Below are positions 51,239-62,182 of a DNA stretch of 64,000 bases, piece by piece. The stretch lies in assembly GCF_000143845.1 (NCBI RefSeq), contig NC_014363.1, forward strand, positions 667,186 through 731,185, given 5' to 3'. The stretch is from Olsenella uli DSM 7084 (GTDB lineage Bacteria > Actinomycetota > Coriobacteriia > Coriobacteriales > Atopobiaceae). How positions within the stretch are numbered: position 1 is the stretch's first letter; each line of letters opens with the position of its first letter. A program made the position numbers and the translations under genes. A model generated the notes under the pieces. It worked only from the letters and a program-made list of their open reading frames with translations. It ran no database searches and was not told where the DNA came from.

Positions 51239-51748
51239 CTATCCGTGCCGGGCTTGGCGATATTCGCCCAGCTTGCGGCCGTACTCCCCTTCGCGCCGGT
51301 GGAACACGCGCGTCAGCACGACGGTCAGCACCAGAAGGATCACGAGGAAGATGGCGGTGAACGTTGCCCATGCACCCGGCGTGCTGGGGAGCCAGCGTCC
51401 CAGGAACGCACACGCTGCCAAACAGATGTAGTAGCTGAGCGAGAACCCCAGGAGTCGCAGGGGGTAGCGCAAGCGTAGCACGGTCGCCCTCAGGTTGAAC
51501 CATAGTTGCTGCAGCACCCCGCCCGCAATGCCTGCGGCGATGAAGCTGAGACAGTAGGCCATGCCCTCGTCCATGCCTTGGAGGGCAGACCCTATGATGA
51601 TGGCGATCACGAGCATGATGCAGGTGATGAGGCTTCCCGTGAGCACGCCCGCGCCTATGGCCGCCCCCGTAGTCTTGAACGGCTCGTCCGAGAAGAGGAC
51701 CTCCCCCTTGCCCCTGCCCATGCTTTCTCCGTTTGTCGTTGCGGTCAT
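51239..51748 (-). CDS. DUF3021 membrane protein (partner of LytTR regulator)
   Basis: A 169-residue protein with four membrane segments (about residues 27-47, 54-76, 95-113 and 118-140), the DUF3021 layout, and a charged C-terminal tail. DUF3021 genes commonly follow a LytTR regulator gene, as here, 46 bases upstream on the same strand. In streptococcal LytTR systems the membrane partner restrains the regulator. ATG at 51748 has GGGAGTGG upstream. The signal is unknown. Confidence 0.78.
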   Translation of the reverse strand: MTATTNGESMGRGKGEVLFSDEPFKTTGAAIGAGVLTGSLITCIMLVIAIIIGSALQGMDEGMAYCLSFIAAGIAGGVLQQLWFNLRATVLRLRYPLRLLGFSLSYYICLAACAFLGRWLPSTPGAWATFTAIFLVILLVLTVVLTRVFHRREGEYGRKLGEYRQARHG

Positions 51749-51794
51749 GGTGCCACTCCCTTCGCTCCGTGCCCAATGCCCTAACTTGATGCCC

Positions 51795-52253
51795 CTACCT
51801 GGACGTGATGCCGATTCGCGCCTTGATTTCCCGGGCGTAGCTCCTGCTGGCGAGCACCGATGACCCATCATCGAGCACGAGCACCAGCCTTCTGCCAACT
51901 TCTGGTCGGATCGACCTCACGTGGCCCAGGTTCACGAGCTCCTGGCGCGAGGCTCGTACGAACTCGGTGCCAGCAAGAAGATCCTCGAGCTCGAAGAGGC
52001 GCAGGGGGCTTTCCAGGTTCGGGCCATCGGCCAGGTGCAGGTATGCGCGACCTTCGGACGTCTCTATGGAGAGGACCTCGTCGGCGGCGACGAGGCGCCG
52101 TTCGATGCCCCCACCTGGCTCGTAGCCTACCAGCCCGCCGCCCAGGGACCGCAGCCTCCGCACCACGCGAGTGACGCGCGGGTCCGCAGGCGCGCAGAGG
52201 ATGGTCACCTCCATCGCGGTTCGCCCTGCTTCCTCGACCACTCGTATGTCCAT
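51795..52253 (-). CDS. LytTR DNA-binding domain regulator
   Basis: A 152-residue transcriptional regulator without a receiver domain. The LytTR domain occupies about residues 50-150: ADEVLSIETSEGRAYLHLAD, then EFVRASRQELVNLGHVRSIR, which is the usual F-R-x-H/R-S/Q-x-VN-x-HI-like block. ATG at 52253 is preferred; an earlier ATG at 52334 would add polar residues without a ribosome binding site. Together with the DUF3021 protein it forms a LytTR regulatory pair. A TATCCT box about 55 bases upstream may be its promoter. Confidence 0.85.
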   Translation of the reverse strand: MDIRVVEEAGRTAMEVTILCAPADPRVTRVVRRLRSLGGGLVGYEPGGGIERRLVAADEVLSIETSEGRAYLHLADGPNLESPLRLFELEDLLAGTEFVRASRQELVNLGHVRSIRPEVGRRLVLVLDDGSSVLASRSYAREIKARIGITSR

Positions 52254-53238: not shown

Positions 53239-53586
53239 TCAGCCCTTGCCCACGGAGCCTCCCTTGGGGGCATCCCCCATGTCGATCCCGGCGGCGGACA
53301 TCATCGCGCGTACGTTGGCCTTGGCGCGCTCCACCACCATGTAGAGCATGACAGAAGCGAACACTGACGCGACGAAGGTGACGATTCCCACGACAAGGGC
53401 CCAAAACGGCCCTTCCTGGTAGATGTTCCAATAGGCCATCAGCGCACCGACGGCGAGCAGCGAGTATGCGATGCGCTTCCATGCGCTCAGGCGCATGATC
53501 GCCCTGGTCTGCAGGTCCGCCTCTGCGATGAGGGCGTCGCGCTCCCGGGCCGTCTGCGCCTTCCTATCCGTGGTCGTGCCAACCAT
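53239..53586 (-). CDS. small membrane protein of unknown function
   Basis: A 115-residue protein with a charged N-terminal helix (ARERDALIAEADLQTRAIMR), two membrane segments (about residues 38-56 and 64-88) and a cytoplasmic tail ending MGDAPKGGSVGKG. ATG at 53586 has GGAGG upstream. No family recognised. It lies downstream of, and convergent to, cutC. Confidence 0.6.
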   Translation of the reverse strand: MVGTTTDRKAQTARERDALIAEADLQTRAIMRLSAWKRIAYSLLAVGALMAYWNIYQEGPFWALVVGIVTFVASVFASVMLYMVVERAKANVRAMMSAAGIDMGDAPKGGSVGKG

Positions 53587-53876: not shown

Positions 53877-54776
53877 TTAGTAGGACAGGCCGGGATCGAA
53901 GACGCCGACGAGGACGCCCACGAACGCAATCGCGACGAGAACCAGCATGGTGGGGATGACGCCGACCTTCTTCTTGGTCATGAGCCACCAGCAGAAGTAC
54001 ACGAACACGAAGTTCAGCAGCTTGGGGAAGATGCCAGAGCCAAAGACGTCAAGCGAGACGCCCGCAGGGCCGGCTAGCTGCAGGGCATCCAGCGTGACCG
54101 TGGAGTTGCTGGACCACAGGACGCCCTCGAGCGGGCCGACGCCCGGGAGTACGAGGGAGGTGCTGATGGAGACCCAGGTGGCGGCGACGGCACCGATGAC
54201 CATGGTGCCGACCATGATGATGGCGCTGCGCAGGGCCTGGGACTCGGGGCCGACCAGGGCCTGGACGGCCGAGCCGCCGAGTTCGTAGCCACGGTTGTAG
54301 GCGAGCTTCATGCCGAAGTACATGAGCACGTTCCACGCCACGATGTAGAACAGCGGGCCAATGACGGAGCCTCCCGTCGAGAGGCCGAGTGCGATGCCCA
54401 GCAGGATGGGGATGAACGTGCCTACGATGATGGAGTCGCCAAGGCCTGCCAGCGGGCCCATGAGGCCGGCGCGAATGCCATTGATGGTCTCGGCGTCGAT
54501 GGCCTCGCCGTTGGCGCGCGCCTCCTCGAGGCCGGTGGTCAGGCCGATGACCATGGTGCCGATCTGGGGTTCGGTGTTGAAGAAGGTGGTGTAGGTCTCC
54601 AGGGCATTGACCTTGTCCTCCTCCTTGTCATAGAGGTCGTCCACGATGGGGAGCATGGCGGCAAGGTAGCCAAAGGTCTGCATGTGTGCCTGCGAGAAGC
54701 AGGTGAGGTTGCCGTATGCCCAGTTGCGGAAGCACTTCTTGCGTGCATCTGCGGAGATCTTCCTCGTCTCGGCCAT
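53877..54776 (-). CDS. PTS mannose-family EIID component
   Basis: A 299-residue membrane subunit of a mannose-type PTS. FRNWAYGNLTCFSQAHMQTFGYLAAM and GLTTGLEEARANGEAIDAETINGIRAGLMGPLAG-like sequence are EIID hallmarks; the GDSIIVGTFIPI and C-terminal hydrophobic segments complete the fold. It works with EIIC to move and phosphorylate a hexose or amino sugar. It is the last gene of the minus-strand A-B-C-D operon. The sugar cannot be assigned from sequence. Confidence 0.95.
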   Translation of the reverse strand: MAETRKISADARKKCFRNWAYGNLTCFSQAHMQTFGYLAAMLPIVDDLYDKEEDKVNALETYTTFFNTEPQIGTMVIGLTTGLEEARANGEAIDAETINGIRAGLMGPLAGLGDSIIVGTFIPILLGIALGLSTGGSVIGPLFYIVAWNVLMYFGMKLAYNRGYELGGSAVQALVGPESQALRSAIIMVGTMVIGAVAATWVSISTSLVLPGVGPLEGVLWSSNSTVTLDALQLAGPAGVSLDVFGSGIFPKLLNFVFVYFCWWLMTKKKVGVIPTMLVLVAIAFVGVLVGVFDPGLSY

Positions 54777-54778
54777 GA

Positions 54779-55642
54779 TCAGATATCCTCCTCTTCCTCT
54801 TCATCGGCAGCACCCGCCGCCCCGGCGATGGCGGGACGAGCGGCCTTGGCCTCCTCGATCTGATACTTGATGAGGGCGAAGAACGCCGCGACGATCGCAC
54901 ACGCGATGAGGTTCATGTGCAGGCAGGCCGCGAGCGTGAAGCCGAACGCAAAGGTGAGCCAATCAAGTGGCTTGTTGACGACCTGCTTGCAGAGGATTGC
55001 GATACCGACTGCAGGGAGCAGGGAGCCGACGGTGAACAGCGTCTTCATGGCGATGCCGTCCATCGGCATGTAGTCCTTCATGAGCTGGACCATGCTGGAA
55101 CCGGCCATGCAGATGATGAACGTGGGAACGAAGGAGAACAGGATGTGGGAGACCCACGGGTAGACGAAGTCGACCAGTGGGATGGTCCTTCTGATCCTCT
55201 TCCAGTCGTGGGTCTCCATTGCCTTCCAGCCAATGGACTGCCACACGAGGTTGAGGGTTGCGGTGCCGTAGAACAGGACGGTTCCGATGGTTCCGACGGC
55301 GGCGCCGAGGGCTGCGGCCAACGAGGCGGCCTCGGTCGAGGACGGGTCGAGCCCCTGGGCGTGGATGGCCAGGATGGAGAGGGGGATGCCGATGTAGGTG
55401 ACGGCACGGACGTCGGCGGACACGGTGCCGCCGGGAGTGACGAGCGCGATGTAGACGACCTGAATCGCGGCGCCGACGATGATGCCCGTCGGGACGTCGC
55501 CGAGTATGAGGCCGACGACGAGACCGCCGACCAGGGGACGGCCGAGGGTGTAGTTACCGACGGTGGTGCCGCCCATGCCAGGCAAGGACGCCAGGCAGGC
55601 GAACAGGCCAAGCAACGCAGCCTGCAGAACGTTGATAGTCAT
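54779..55642 (-). CDS. PTS mannose/sorbose-family EIIC component
   Basis: A 287-residue membrane subunit with about seven segments. LQAALLGLFACLASLPGMGGTTVGNYTLGRP and GLILGDVPTGIIVGAAIQVVYIALVTPGG are typical EIIC-Man/Sor sequence. The tail is acidic (DEEEEEDI). ATG at 55642 is preferred over a TTG nine bases upstream because AAGGTGG lies at proper distance. Two bases separate it from EIID, so the membrane subunits are coupled. Confidence 0.95.
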   Translation of the reverse strand: MTINVLQAALLGLFACLASLPGMGGTTVGNYTLGRPLVGGLVVGLILGDVPTGIIVGAAIQVVYIALVTPGGTVSADVRAVTYIGIPLSILAIHAQGLDPSSTEAASLAAALGAAVGTIGTVLFYGTATLNLVWQSIGWKAMETHDWKRIRRTIPLVDFVYPWVSHILFSFVPTFIICMAGSSMVQLMKDYMPMDGIAMKTLFTVGSLLPAVGIAILCKQVVNKPLDWLTFAFGFTLAACLHMNLIACAIVAAFFALIKYQIEEAKAARPAIAGAAGAADEEEEEDI

Positions 55643-55694: not shown

Positions 55695-56192
55695 TCACTT
55701 GAGGTCAAAGCGGTCGCGGAACTTTGACCAGCTGCCGATGGCGTTGTCCTTGAGCAGGGCGAACTCCACGTCATAGCCCGCTTGGGTGATGGCCTCGAGG
55801 GCCTGCGCCTCCTCGGGGGTGATCGACTGGTTGTTGCCCAGCTTGACCGCACCCGGACGGTCATTGCAGGGGCCGACGACGACGGTCTTGACATCGGAGG
55901 GCTTGAACCCGTAGTCGACGAGTATCGTCCTCATGTCGAGGGGGCTCTTGGTGATGAGGAAGTAGCGGGTCTTGCTCTCGAGGACCTTGCCCATGCTCTC
56001 CCTGAAGTGGTCGAGGGTCCAGATGAAGACCTTCTTGTCGGGCGCGGCGCCCTTGTAGGCGGCCTTGAGCACGGGATTGGTCGCCGCCGCGTCGTTCACG
56101 GCGATGATGCCGTCGCAGGGATACTCGAGAGACCACCTCGTGACGGTCTGACCATGGATCATGCGGTCATCGATACGGACGAACGAAATCAT
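55695..56192 (-). CDS. PTS mannose/sorbose-family EIIB component
   Basis: A 165-residue cytoplasmic EIIB. The phosphoacceptor is H13 in VRIDDRMIHGQTVTRW, the family signature, and GIIAVNDAAATNP follows. It receives phosphate from EIIA and passes it to the sugar in the EIIC/EIID channel. GGAGACTCC precedes the ATG. The 140-base gap to EIIA holds nothing recognisable. Confidence 0.95.
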   Translation of the reverse strand: MISFVRIDDRMIHGQTVTRWSLEYPCDGIIAVNDAAATNPVLKAAYKGAAPDKKVFIWTLDHFRESMGKVLESKTRYFLITKSPLDMRTILVDYGFKPSDVKTVVVGPCNDRPGAVKLGNNQSITPEEAQALEAITQAGYDVEFALLKDNAIGSWSKFRDRFDLK

Positions 56193-56332: not shown

Positions 56333-56758
56333 CTAGAGGCTCTCGTCCTCCTCGTCGTCAAGCTGCAGGACGAACTCACGGATGGCTGCCTGCCCTTCGC
56401 TGATGATGTCGCGCTTGAGCGTCTCGTCGTCTTCGTCGGACTGAAGGGTGGCCGTGATGACCATGGGGACATTGGCCCCGCCGAAGACCGTCGCGTTTTG
56501 CATGAGACCCCTCTGGGTCAGGACGTTGATCGCGTTGGTCAGGGGCGACCCGCCGATGAGGTCACCGAAGACGAAGACGGAGTCCTCTGGCTTGATGACG
56601 GAAACCGTCTGCTCGAGGGCGCGCACGTAGGCGTCCGCCCCCATGCCATCTTCCATGCCACAGCTCAGGACGTCAGTCCTCTCTCCCACGAGCATCTTGA
56701 TGACGCTGCCAAGACCGGGGGCGAAGGTGCCGTGGCTCACCAGAAGCAGGTAACGCAT
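56333..56758 (-). CDS. PTS mannose-family EIIA component
   Basis: A 141-residue EIIA-Man domain protein. The phosphoacceptor is H9 in LLVSHGTFAPGL; FGDLIGGSPLTNAI is the second signature. It is separate from EIIB, unlike fused ManX. The acidic C-terminus (DDEEDESL) is unusual but harmless. It is the first gene of the PTS operon, about 80 bases downstream of a well-formed promoter (TTCACA-N17-TAGAAT). Confidence 0.95.
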   Translation of the reverse strand: MRYLLLVSHGTFAPGLGSVIKMLVGERTDVLSCGMEDGMGADAYVRALEQTVSVIKPEDSVFVFGDLIGGSPLTNAINVLTQRGLMQNATVFGGANVPMVITATLQSDEDDETLKRDIISEGQAAIREFVLQLDDEEDESL

Positions 56759-56838: not shown

Positions 56839-56882
56839 ATTCTAGCCTGATGTGAAATAATTGTGAACTACAATATTCACAT
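56839..56882 (-). promoter_or_regulatory. promoter and palindromic operator of the PTS operon
   Basis: On the minus strand, -35 TTCACA (56862-56867) and -10 TAGAAT (56839-56844) are separated by exactly 17 bases. The -35 lies in an imperfect palindrome (56850-56882) with outer arms ATGTGAA and TTCACAT and inner ATTGT/ACAAT. The palindrome also covers the stop codon of the upstream phosphatase-EIIA gene. The arrangement suggests repression or activation of the PTS genes; the regulator is unknown. Confidence 0.65.
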
Positions 56883-58412
56883 ATTCTTGGCGATGCTGCG
56901 GTGGTTCCCCTGGTGGCGGCCAAACGAGATGATCGCCTCGCCCACCTCGACTGAGCCCTTGGCAAGGATTCGGATGCCACCAAGCTCGCGTGCGTTGGTC
57001 ACCACGAGCATCACTGGCTCGCTGTTGGCCTTGGGGACCGACGTCGGGTCCCAAGAGATGAGAGGGGTGCCACGTCGTATGGAGTCGTTCTGCCAGGCAT
57101 GCTGCCTGAACCCGCCCCCGGCGTACCTCTCTGCTCGGGGGCCCACCACCAGGAGAAGCTCCATGCCGTCCTGGGAGAGCAGCCCAAGCGCGTTGTTCGA
57201 GGGAAGCTGAGCCGTGACGCGGCAGGTGGCGGGAGCGTACACGGTGGAGCCGTCCGCAATGATGGCAACCCCCTCTCCGCAGGAGCCGTCGGAAAAGGCG
57301 GGATCGCCCACCTCGGAGAGCGGCATGATCTTGCCCGAGACCGGTGCGAACAGGATTCCCCTCTCCGTTTCGGGGACCTCAAGCATCACATAGTCGTGGT
57401 CATGGAACGAACGATCGCGCTGGTTGGTGTCGATGCGCTCGGTGAGGTCGTTCGCCCTTCCGGTGATGTAGTAGAGGTCGGCCGTGACCTTGTTGGGGTT
57501 CTCGAAGGCGTTGACAAAGAAGCGTCGGCTCGACCTGGGCTCCGGAGGGTTGGCGGGCTTTGCCGCGGCGAGTTCCGAGCTCGAGGACACGATCTCGTCG
57601 TCGGGCATGTGGTATCGCCTGGGCCAGCGGCTCAGGAGGAGCGAGCGAACCTGCCTGACCTCGGAACCACGGACCCCACAGTCCAAGAGATAGGCCTCGA
57701 TGGTGCCGAACGTCTCGCCCAGACGGTCATAGACCGTCGAGATGGCATCGATGCGCAACGAGAGGTCACCACGAACGCGCCTGCCTCCCGTGCCCTCGCG
57801 CTCCTCGAAGATAGCGGCATTGACCTCGGGAACATAGCCAAACGAATAGGCATAGTCCGCAATGAGCTGACGCCGCTCGACGCCCACGAGCCCCAAGAGC
57901 AGCAACGACAGCAAGCCGGTTCGATCGCTCCCCGCCCCACAGTGGAAGAGGGTGCAACCGCGTCGGGGGACGTTGGCGAGGAACGTGAAGATCTCCCGCA
58001 TGGCAGGACGGTTCTCAAGCATCTGGAACATGCTGTCAGCGAGGTAGTTGCCATCGTCGTCCCCCCTGCCAAGAACCGAGCCCGTGATGTCGTAGTCAAA
58101 GAGCGGGACGTTTCGGTATCCGACGTCTATGAGCGAGACAAGCCTCTCGGGGCTTCTACGGACCTCGTCCGTACCGCGCAGGTCGAGCACCTGCCGGACC
58201 CCATAGCCGTAGAGAGCGTCCGCATCCTCCTTGTTTACGCTGGCCGTGGTTCCCGAACGAATGAAGCGGTGGTAGCGTGTCATGCCCCGGGGCGTCGGAA
58301 ACCCCCCGAGCTCGCGGATGTTCACGCCCGTGTCTATGGCGACCCTACCAAGCTCGTAGCCGCGTCGGACGCCGTGATTGCCCGTGAGGTCGATCAGACT
58401 ACGCATGCCCAT
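56877..58412 (-). CDS. tyrosine phosphatase fused to a histidine-less PTS EIIA (Glc-type) domain
   Basis: A 511-residue cytoplasmic protein. Residues about 20-275 are a Y_phosphatase3 domain: VNIRELGGF and the active-site loop HCGAGSDRTG, with C158 and R164 (CX5R). Residues about 350-500 are a glucose-type EIIA fold: FAPVSGKIMPLSEVGDPAF, GEGVAIIADGSTVYAP, and a closing VVTNARELGG...KGSVEVGE. Both active-site histidines are gone. The NHA histidine (H75 of E. coli Crr) is N408 in SNNALG, and the VHFG histidine (H90) is V423 in LLVVG. The EIIA part therefore should not carry phosphate and may be a sensing or docking domain. It precedes the PTS operon. GAGGGGG lies upstream of the ATG. Confidence 0.88.
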   Translation of the reverse strand: MGMRSLIDLTGNHGVRRGYELGRVAIDTGVNIRELGGFPTPRGMTRYHRFIRSGTTASVNKEDADALYGYGVRQVLDLRGTDEVRRSPERLVSLIDVGYRNVPLFDYDITGSVLGRGDDDGNYLADSMFQMLENRPAMREIFTFLANVPRRGCTLFHCGAGSDRTGLLSLLLLGLVGVERRQLIADYAYSFGYVPEVNAAIFEEREGTGGRRVRGDLSLRIDAISTVYDRLGETFGTIEAYLLDCGVRGSEVRQVRSLLLSRWPRRYHMPDDEIVSSSSELAAAKPANPPEPRSSRRFFVNAFENPNKVTADLYYITGRANDLTERIDTNQRDRSFHDHDYVMLEVPETERGILFAPVSGKIMPLSEVGDPAFSDGSCGEGVAIIADGSTVYAPATCRVTAQLPSNNALGLLSQDGMELLLVVGPRAERYAGGGFRQHAWQNDSIRRGTPLISWDPTSVPKANSEPVMLVVTNARELGGIRILAKGSVEVGEAIISFGRHQGNHRSIAKNM

Positions 58413-59840: not shown

Positions 59841-61280
59841 ATGGCGATCGTTGCGGCGTTTGCGGTTCCGCATCCGCCCCTGATCATCCCTGCTGTGGGG
59901 AACGGCCGCGAGCGAGACGTCCAGGACACCATCGACGCCTATGGCGAGGCGGGGCGTCGCATCGCAGGGCTTGCGCCCGAGACCCTCGTCATCTCGACGC
60001 CGCACTCGGTCATGTATCGTGACTACATCCATATATCCCCCGGTAGCCGTGCACACGGGAGCTTTGCCCAGTTCGGCGCTCCAGAGGCTGCCTATGGCTG
60101 CGACTACGACGTGGGCTTCGTGGATGCCCTGTGCGCCGCCGTCGACGCTGCCGGCATCCCTGCGGGAACCGAGGGAGAGCGCGACCCCCTGCTCGACCAT
60201 GCGACGATGGTTCCGCTCCATTTCATCTGGAAGGCCTGGCCCGATGACAGGCCACGGCCCAAGGTCGTGCGTATGGGGCTCTCTGGCCTTTCGCCTGCTG
60301 TCCACTACCGGCTCGGGCAGTGCGTGCAGGCGGTCGCGGGCGAGCTCGGCAGAAGGACCGTCTATGTCGCCTCGGGTGACCTCAGCCACAGGCTGACCGC
60401 CGACGGCCCCTATGGCTTCGCCCCCGACGGCCCCAAGTTCGACGAGGCGATCGACGGCATCTTCCGCACGGGCGACTTCCTCGCTCTGCTCTCCATGGAT
60501 CCGGGCCTTGCCGAGCGGGCGGCCGAATGCGGGCTCCGCAGCTTCCAGATCATGGCGGGCGCGCTCGACCGCACGTCTGTCTCCGCGGAGCTGCTGAGCC
60601 ACGAAGGGCCGTTTGGGGTGGGTTACGGCGTGGCGGCGTTCACCCCGACATCTGCGGCGGGTGCAGACGCCAGCCGCAGCTTCCTCGAACAGTATGAGGA
60701 CGCCCATGTGCGTGAGATGGCCGGGCGCAAAGCCGCTGAGGACCTGTTTGTGCGCCTCGCACGGCTCTCGCTCGAGACCTATGTGCGCGACGGCAGGCGC
60801 ATCGACCCCGGCAATCCCCATGACATGGCCTCACTGGGCGAGGCCCTGCCCGCAGAGCTTCTCGACGGGCGCGCGGGATGCTTCGTCTCACTCAAAGTGG
60901 GCGGGGAGCTGCGCGGCTGCATGGGGACGATACTGCCGACCCGTTCGAGCCTGGCGGAGGAGATCTGCGCCAATGCGGTAAGCGCCGGCACGCGGGATCC
61001 GCGCTTTCCCGCCGTACGGAGCTCGGAGCTTTACGAACTGGTCTATGACGTGGACGTCCTCACGGTCCCCGAACCCATTTCCTCGCCAGACGAGCTCGAT
61101 GTGCGCCGCTACGGCGTGATCGTCTCGACGGCCGACGGCCGTCGCGGGCTGCTTTTGCCCGACCTTGACGGGGTCGACTCCGTCGAGCAACAGGTGGGCA
61201 TAGCGGCACGCAAGGGTGGCATCGACCTTGGCAGGGATGGCTGGACGCTCGAGCGCTTCGAGGTCGTGAGACATGCATGA
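59841..61280 (+). CDS. AmmeMemoRadiSam protein: MEMO1-like domain fused to AMMECR1 domain
   Basis: A 479-residue two-domain protein. Residues about 1-265 are a MEMO1/LigB-like domain, a fold shared with extradiol dioxygenases: AAFAVPHPPLIIPAVGNG, VISTPHSVMY, and a SGDLSHRL block with conserved histidines. Residues about 300-479 are AMMECR1: GCFVSLKVGGELRGCMGTI and RDPRFPAV. The next gene is a radical SAM protein overlapping by four bases, which defines the AmmeMemoRadiSam system. Its function is not established; a role in modifying a protein or small molecule has been suggested. ATG at 59841 has GGGAGG upstream. Confidence 0.9.
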   Translation: MAIVAAFAVPHPPLIIPAVGNGRERDVQDTIDAYGEAGRRIAGLAPETLVISTPHSVMYRDYIHISPGSRAHGSFAQFGAPEAAYGCDYDVGFVDALCAAVDAAGIPAGTEGERDPLLDHATMVPLHFIWKAWPDDRPRPKVVRMGLSGLSPAVHYRLGQCVQAVAGELGRRTVYVASGDLSHRLTADGPYGFAPDGPKFDEAIDGIFRTGDFLALLSMDPGLAERAAECGLRSFQIMAGALDRTSVSAELLSHEGPFGVGYGVAAFTPTSAAGADASRSFLEQYEDAHVREMAGRKAAEDLFVRLARLSLETYVRDGRRIDPGNPHDMASLGEALPAELLDGRAGCFVSLKVGGELRGCMGTILPTRSSLAEEICANAVSAGTRDPRFPAVRSSELYELVYDVDVLTVPEPISSPDELDVRRYGVIVSTADGRRGLLLPDLDGVDSVEQQVGIAARKGGIDLGRDGWTLERFEVVRHA

Positions 61281-62182
61281 ACGATACGCACGGAGCTACG
61301 GATGGCATGGGTGCCACGAGTGGCGCGCACGCCATGGACGGTACGCGCAGGGCGACCTGCCTCACCTGTCCGCGCGCGTGTCGTGTCCCGGAGGGCGGCG
61401 TCGGCTTCTGCCGTGCGCGCAGGAACGTGGGCGGCACGGTCGTTGCGGAGAACTACGGCTGCGTGACCTCACTCGCCGTTGACCCCGTCGAGAAGAAGCC
61501 GCTTGCGCGCTTCCATCCCGGGTCCCTGCTCCTCTCGGTGGGAAGCTATGGCTGCAACCTGCGCTGCCCCTTCTGCCAGAACCACCGCATCGCACAGGCG
61601 GGGAGAGATGGCGTGCCCTGGCGCCGGGTCTTTCCGGAACGGCTCGTCGACCTTGCCTGCGAGGAGCGTCGGCGTGACCCGCGCATGATCGGCATCGCCT
61701 ATACCTACAACGAACCGCTTGTCGGCTGGGAGTACGTGCGCGACTGCTCACGTGAGGCCCACAGGCACGGCCTTGTCAACGTGCTGGTGTCAAGCGGCTA
61801 CGCGAACGCCGAGGTGATCGACTGCCTGGCCGGGCTTATCGATGCGGCGAACATCGACCTCAAAGGCACTGCCCCCACCTTCTGCGACGAATGTGGCTTC
61901 GACGTCAGCACCGTGAAGGGGACGATCTCCCGCCTCGTCGCCTCGGGAGCGCATGTCGAGGTAACGACCCTTGTCGTCCCGGGCAAGAACGACACGCCCG
62001 ACCAGGTCGCGACCATCGCGCGGTGGCTGTGTGAGACCAGCGGGGACATCGTCTACCACCTGACGCGCTTCTTCCCCTGCTGGCGCATGTCGGACGCCGC
62101 CCCCACACCGGTCGAGAGGGTCTATGCGCTCGCCGATGTGGCAAGGGAATACCTGGACCACGTGTACGTGGGCAACTGCTAG
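61277..62182 (+). CDS. AmmeMemoRadiSam system radical SAM enzyme
   Basis: A 301-residue radical SAM protein related to pyruvate formate-lyase activases. The [4Fe-4S]/SAM triad is C93, C97 and C100 in CNLRCPFCQN. A second cysteine set precedes it: C28, C31, C35 and C45 (CLTCPRAC...GFC), typical of this subfamily. YTYNEPLVGWEYV and NIDLKGTAPTF follow the activase pattern. The ATG overlaps the upstream stop (ATGA), so the system is translated as one unit. The protein or molecule acted on is unknown. Confidence 0.92.
   Translation: MNDTHGATDGMGATSGAHAMDGTRRATCLTCPRACRVPEGGVGFCRARRNVGGTVVAENYGCVTSLAVDPVEKKPLARFHPGSLLLSVGSYGCNLRCPFCQNHRIAQAGRDGVPWRRVFPERLVDLACEERRRDPRMIGIAYTYNEPLVGWEYVRDCSREAHRHGLVNVLVSSGYANAEVIDCLAGLIDAANIDLKGTAPTFCDECGFDVSTVKGTISRLVASGAHVEVTTLVVPGKNDTPDQVATIARWLCETSGDIVYHLTRFFPCWRMSDAAPTPVERVYALADVAREYLDHVYVGNC

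Follow-up and report, generated by a model that had tools for sequence, protein, structure and literature searches.

EIIA proteins are textbook regulators, whose phosphorylation reports sugar uptake. Unphosphorylated EIIAGlc also regulates targets by binding, for example CsrD (PMC5027483). On the phosphatase side, the lysine of the HCXXGKDR loop defines the atypical lipid phosphatases and is needed there for substrate binding (PMC3091653). A search of open-licence PubMed Central articles found no paper on a phosphatase/EIIA pairing or on an EIIA without its histidines. Here we describe a gene of Olsenella uli DSM 7084 in which a Cys-phosphatase is fused to a glucose-type EIIA domain (pseudo-EIIA) that has lost both relay histidines. 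The window is the whole stretch of 64,000 nucleotides that was analysed (contig NC_014363.1, positions 667,186 to 731,185), and coordinates are counted from its first letter.

Domain organisation of the fusion protein

The minus-strand open reading frame 56877-58412 encodes 511 amino acids and is scored as coding by its codon usage. Its features are the following:

56877..58412, minus strand: PTP-pseudoEIIA fusion protein, 511 aa (open reading frame, Pfam, codon score)
57633..58337, minus strand: Cys-phosphatase domain (PF13350), aa 26-260 (Pfam; AlphaFold2 pLDDT mostly above 90; Foldseek)
57915..57944, minus strand: P-loop H157-C158-G-A-G-S162-D163-R164-T-G166; catalytic C, D and R kept, lysine of the atypical lipid phosphatases replaced by serine (signature, PMC3091653)
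57429..57554, minus strand: linker, aa 287-328, with two predicted helices (292-304 and 306-328) of low confidence (AlphaFold2)
57390..57401, minus strand: D338-H339-D340-Y341 motif, whose D338, H339 and Y341 do not vary among the 12 pseudo-EIIAs
56991..57353, minus strand: pseudo-EIIA domain (PF00358), aa 354-474 (Pfam; Foldseek match to 1f3g, TM 0.90)
57192..57194, minus strand: N407, at the position of EIIA H75 (alignment)
57147..57149, minus strand: V422, at the position of EIIA H90, the phospho-acceptor (alignment)
57084..57110, minus strand: FRQHAWQND, a motif of the family (aa 435-443), in which F, R, Q, W, Q, N and D are the same in 12/12 pseudo-EIIAs

Both domains are recognised by Pfam, Y_phosphatase3 (PF13350) with an E-value of 3e-42 and 145.7 bits against a cut-off of 22.2, and PTS_EIIA_1 (PF00358) with an E-value of 1.2e-28, far above its cut-off. 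The CX5R P-loop with its catalytic Asp is present (C158, D163, R164), and the translation bears out the original prediction of an intact phosphatase loop, which had named C158 and R164. An AlphaFold2 model built from 38 sequences reached pLDDT values above 90 for most residues of either domain, with a disordered linker and a pTM of 0.54. The two domains are credible as modelled, and their relative arrangement is not predicted; given this pTM and the low-confidence linker, allostery gains no support from the structure. An origin of the fusion by chance or as a frameshift artefact is ruled out by the codon score, the homologues and the conservation described below.

Loss of the relay histidines

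When the model was compared with Foldseek, its pseudo-EIIA part superposed on E. coli IIAGlc (1f3g) with a TM-score of 0.90 and an rmsd of 1.7 A, which together with the Pfam match agrees with the earlier statement that the EIIA fold is well kept. That both active-site histidines are missing from this domain is also correct, except that the residue numbers first given, N408 and V423, are one too high; counted from the ATG, they become N407 and V422. The two lie 15 positions apart, as H75 and H90 do in Crr, and are found at adjacent predicted strands (408-413 and 418-423); the alignment with solved EIIA structures is gap-free across this stretch. Because of this spacing, the gap-free alignment and the superposition, the histidines are absent rather than misaligned. 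For the numbering we used the E. coli Crr sequence as reference, and its two histidines aligned with those of all 36 other ordinary EIIAs.

A displaced histidine near the old site was considered and rejected, as no conserved histidine lies inside the EIIA domain. The sole histidine invariant in the pseudo-EIIA family is H339 of the DHDY motif, which precedes the first EIIA strand by some 15 residues. With the acceptor gone, phosphate from HPr would not be accepted by the usual route, and to judge from the sequence the missing acceptor would rule out a relay function unless another residue serves.

Distribution and conservation of the pseudo-EIIA family

In 140 genomes from the host's bacterial family, a profile search detected 12 pseudo-EIIAs in 11 genomes, spread over eight genera of related oral, gut and rumen bacteria and set apart from ordinary EIIAs by a gap in bit score (267 vs 123). 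No further members appeared in a search of the order (399 genomes, the family included) or among 397 genomes sampled evenly from the phylum; as far as searched, these proteins are confined to one bacterial family. In a tree with 37 ordinary EIIAs they form a single clade with a support of 100/100. Asparagine occupies the H75 position in 11 of the 12 and histidine in the remaining one (genome G079), and the H90 position holds T, A, V or S but never histidine (0/12), whereas all 37 ordinary EIIAs carry histidine at both. The substitutions first seen in O. uli are therefore a family trait, with both histidines lost in 11 of 12 members and H90 only in one. Neither displaced histidines nor homologues retaining the pair were found: an H90 equivalent occurs in none of the 12, and an H75 equivalent in G079 alone. 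The original observation is real, and stronger than first stated. The G079 fusion (locus L094, 7807-9297), with a histidine at the H75 position and none at H90, is perhaps an intermediate or a reversion.

The sequences are under constraint, since closely related pseudo-EIIAs, compared in pairs, have dN/dS values clearly below 1 (e.g. dN 0.14 vs dS 0.56). D94 and V96, each present in 35 of the 37 ordinary sequences, have given way to other residues, and the loop with V40 and F41 is not retained either. Invariant residues of the family's own are R398, Q402, R436, Q437, W440, Q441, N442, W454 and D338-H339-x-Y341. An altered active-site face combined with new invariant residues is the pattern expected of a domain that has taken on a new, presumed role in binding.

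Matches of the EIIA part to phage records are below 60% identity, and those listed lie in unannotated records. A mobile origin was rejected: plasmid matches cover at most 58% of the query, and the listed ones fall within the phosphatase part.

Association with one phosphatase subclade

The original prediction tied the phosphatase to the pseudo-EIIA from one gene, and the pair indeed recurs across genera. The two are fused in five cases (the window and genomes G015, G031, G079 and G080), encoded by adjacent genes in two (G152, G153) and within a few genes of each other in another two (G005, G077); for the remaining three of the 12 pseudo-EIIAs, no phosphatase gene lies that close. Phosphatases of the five fusions and of G152 and G153 fall into one clade with good support; its loop reads HCG[AG]GSDRTG, in which the equivalents of C158, D163 and R164 are kept throughout, and nearly all stand-alone phosphatase relatives have M in place of the loop S.

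A search for this subclade in the 140 genomes placed its ten best matches in 10 of the 11 genomes with a pseudo-EIIA, the next match scoring 285 bits. The cut at ten was chosen after the scores were known, and seven of the ten had built the query profile; the independent part of the list consists of G085, G005 and G077, which rank below the query's own members. Fisher's test for co-occurrence gave 2e-14 by genome and 1e-6 by genus, figures which are indicative only, because the cut was post hoc and the genomes are related.

Genomic neighbourhood

The fusion gene is followed on the same strand by a mannose-family PTS operon in the order A-B-C-D (56758 to 53877):

56839..56867, minus strand: promoter-like site TTCACA-17-TAGAAT, downstream of the fusion gene and ahead of the PTS operon (one such site, with 0.7 expected by chance)
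56333..56758, minus strand: EIIA of the mannose-family PTS (PF03610), H9 present (Pfam, sequence)
55695..56192, minus strand: EIIB of the mannose-family PTS (PF03830), H13 present (Pfam, sequence)
54779..55642, minus strand: EIIC of the mannose-family PTS (PF03609; Pfam)
53877..54776, minus strand: EIID of the mannose-family PTS (PF03613; Pfam)
53239..53586, minus strand: 115-aa protein following EIID, with a weak match to DUF202; it is conserved together with the PTS throughout the family

The interval that separates the fusion gene from the PTS contains this promoter-like site and no terminator-like site. The fusion gene lies directly upstream of PTS A-B-C-D and the small conserved protein in the window, G079 and G080. 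In G153 the PTS is upstream of the phosphatase/pseudo-EIIA pair, with a deoC-type gene between them, and G152, where the locus meets a contig edge, is inferred to have this order too. A location next to a mannose-type PTS, as originally described, holds for five of the seven fused or adjacent pairs, that of the window included (one inferred at the contig edge), but not for the other two or for any of the five remaining pseudo-EIIAs. These two are fusions without a mannose-family PTS beside them, one of which is divergent from a PTS EIIBCA gene (L037). Conversely, the same mannose-family PTS, traced by its EIIC, occurs in 81 of 140 family genomes, mostly without a pseudo-EIIA protein. The PTS loci that were read (L129-L148, e.g. 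L129 4483-8614) usually close with the gene of the small DUF202-like protein, behind which a HAD hydrolase often stands, and none has a phosphatase or pseudo-EIIA beside the PTS. Since the PTS is widespread without the fusion, it need not be the partner of the protein.

Other neighbours recur as well. HAD Hydrolase_3 and DeoC-type genes are among those of the pseudo-EIIAs, and an HTH_6 (RpiR-type) regulator lies beside four of the five pseudo-EIIAs outside the seven phosphatase-linked ones; three of these calls come from Pfam (one just under the cut-off), and that in G085, cut by a contig end, was judged by eye. No SIS domain was detected by Pfam at E 0.01 in the HTH_6 regulators at L092 9634-10494, L095 7773-8597 and L042 4666-5499. 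The divergent dehydrogenase of the original prediction is present in the window as a 2,4-diaminopentanoate-dehydrogenase-like gene, but neither G079 nor G080 has it as a neighbour, and a partnership with it was rejected for this reason. Elsewhere in the window, a LigB (Memo-like) and AMMECR1 fusion is followed by a radical-SAM partner-like gene, judged by eye (59841-62182, plus strand), and a LytTR DNA-binding protein by a DUF3021-like membrane protein with a weak match (51239-52214, minus strand).

Discussion

A glucose-type EIIA domain appears to have left the phosphorelay and to have become a binding domain beside an active-looking Cys-phosphatase. As the family is kept across related bacteria, the dead relay has probably turned into a sensor or docking part. 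Most likely, the EIIA fold would bind something that reports sugar supply, be it a ligand such as a sugar phosphate or a partner such as a PTS-related protein, and this binding would place or switch the phosphatase. We give a probability of roughly 0.5 to the reading in which an EIIA-derived binding domain responds to sugar state by controlling or positioning the phosphatase. As substrate, a phosphoinositide is less likely than a phosphorylated protein or metabolite that belongs to sugar metabolism. That the protein senses the state of sugar transport, as first proposed, is plausible and partly supported: the recurrent pairing, the conserved loss and the sugar-gene neighbours speak for it, whereas the PTS is not universal beside the gene, and sensing itself is something that we infer. 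More tentatively, the fold could be a non-phosphorylatable sugar-state sensor that controls the Cys-phosphatase in cis, with the stand-alone copies next to RpiR-type regulators using the same sensor in transcription.

Other readings share part of this evidence. It is rather unlikely that the pseudo-EIIA binds HPr, EIIB or the permease like an ever-unphosphorylated EIIAGlc and so brings the phosphatase to PTS components, perhaps dephosphorylating them. The apparently intact fold of the model, the single HPr of O. uli and the active PTS genes adjoining the fusion are consistent with such docking, and unphosphorylated EIIAGlc does bind and regulate other proteins (PMC5027483; complexes 1gla and 3our, both among the Foldseek matches of our model). 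However, the old active-site face is not conserved, D94, V96, V40 and F41 being lost or replaced, and conservation has moved elsewhere. Moreover, we know of no Cys-phosphatase of the PF13350 type that acts on phospho-histidine. Action of the phosphatase on the sugar phosphate made by the neighbouring PTS, in level control or inducer expulsion and with the pseudo-EIIA as an allosteric site for the same compound, we also regard as doubtful. It would suit the PTS and HAD Hydrolase_3 neighbours, the RpiR-type regulators beside the stand-alone domain and the presence of Trp, Arg, Gln and Asn in the family's new invariant set, as well as our finding no BY-type tyrosine kinase above the cut-off in O. 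uli; yet the nearest solved relatives are protein tyrosine phosphatases, and to our knowledge sugar-phosphate activity has no precedent in the PF13350 fold family. A search for HPr kinase gave no match in O. uli, and the control search likewise missed B. subtilis, so that this negative carries no weight.

The same solved relatives, together with the predicted helical linker before the EIIA domain, would fit a phosphatase acting on pTyr, pSer or pThr in proteins, for which the pseudo-EIIA is a mere scaffold or dimerisation domain unrelated to sugar. We consider this quite improbable, because sugar-metabolism neighbours recur and the stand-alone copies beside RpiR-type regulators indicate a function other than tethering. 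The loss of both histidines and the patchy distribution (11 of 140 genomes) could finally suggest a decaying, functionless remnant carried along on the phosphatase, but this is largely refuted, and very improbable indeed, given a single clade that spans eight genera, keeps invariant residues and shows low dN/dS, the stand-alone genes and the repeated association with a phosphatase. If control or placement of the phosphatase by the EIIA-derived domain is true, PTS regulation would have evolved into a signalling part without need for phosphotransfer, with the fold kept, the acceptor dropped and a phosphatase paired to it. The family also offers small, expressible proteins for testing phosphotransfer-free signalling.

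Compared with known systems, the phosphatase part has its best solved sequence match in a Clostridioides difficile PTP (8dhi/8dhj, E-value 7e-15), also a Foldseek match, which is a 249-aa chain and matches this part only. The atypical lipid phosphatases MptpB and Lmo1800 belong to the same PF13350 family, share the P-loop Cys, Asp and Arg and were reached by Foldseek through M. tuberculosis PtpB (1ywf). However, they carry the Lys of HCXXGKDR, in whose place the fusion subclade has Ser (S162) and most stand-alone relatives Met, and the EIIA fold is found on the fusion only; we rejected their class for the fusion phosphatase because the defining lysine is absent. With EIIAGlc/Crr (PF00358), the pseudo-EIIA has the fold and a Pfam match above the cut-off in common, but both relay histidines and D94 are replaced, it has invariant motifs of its own and an N-terminal extension, and it is fused or linked to a phosphatase rather than to EIIBC. 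The regulation of CsrD, glycerol kinase and FrsA by unphosphorylated EIIAGlc is the closest case in the way it works, the EIIA fold being likewise a regulatory binder; in those cases the EIIA can be phosphorylated and its phosphorylation state is the signal, whereas here the domain has no acceptor and stands in cis. The pairing of a phosphatase with a pseudo-EIIA is a new variant within PTS-derived regulation.
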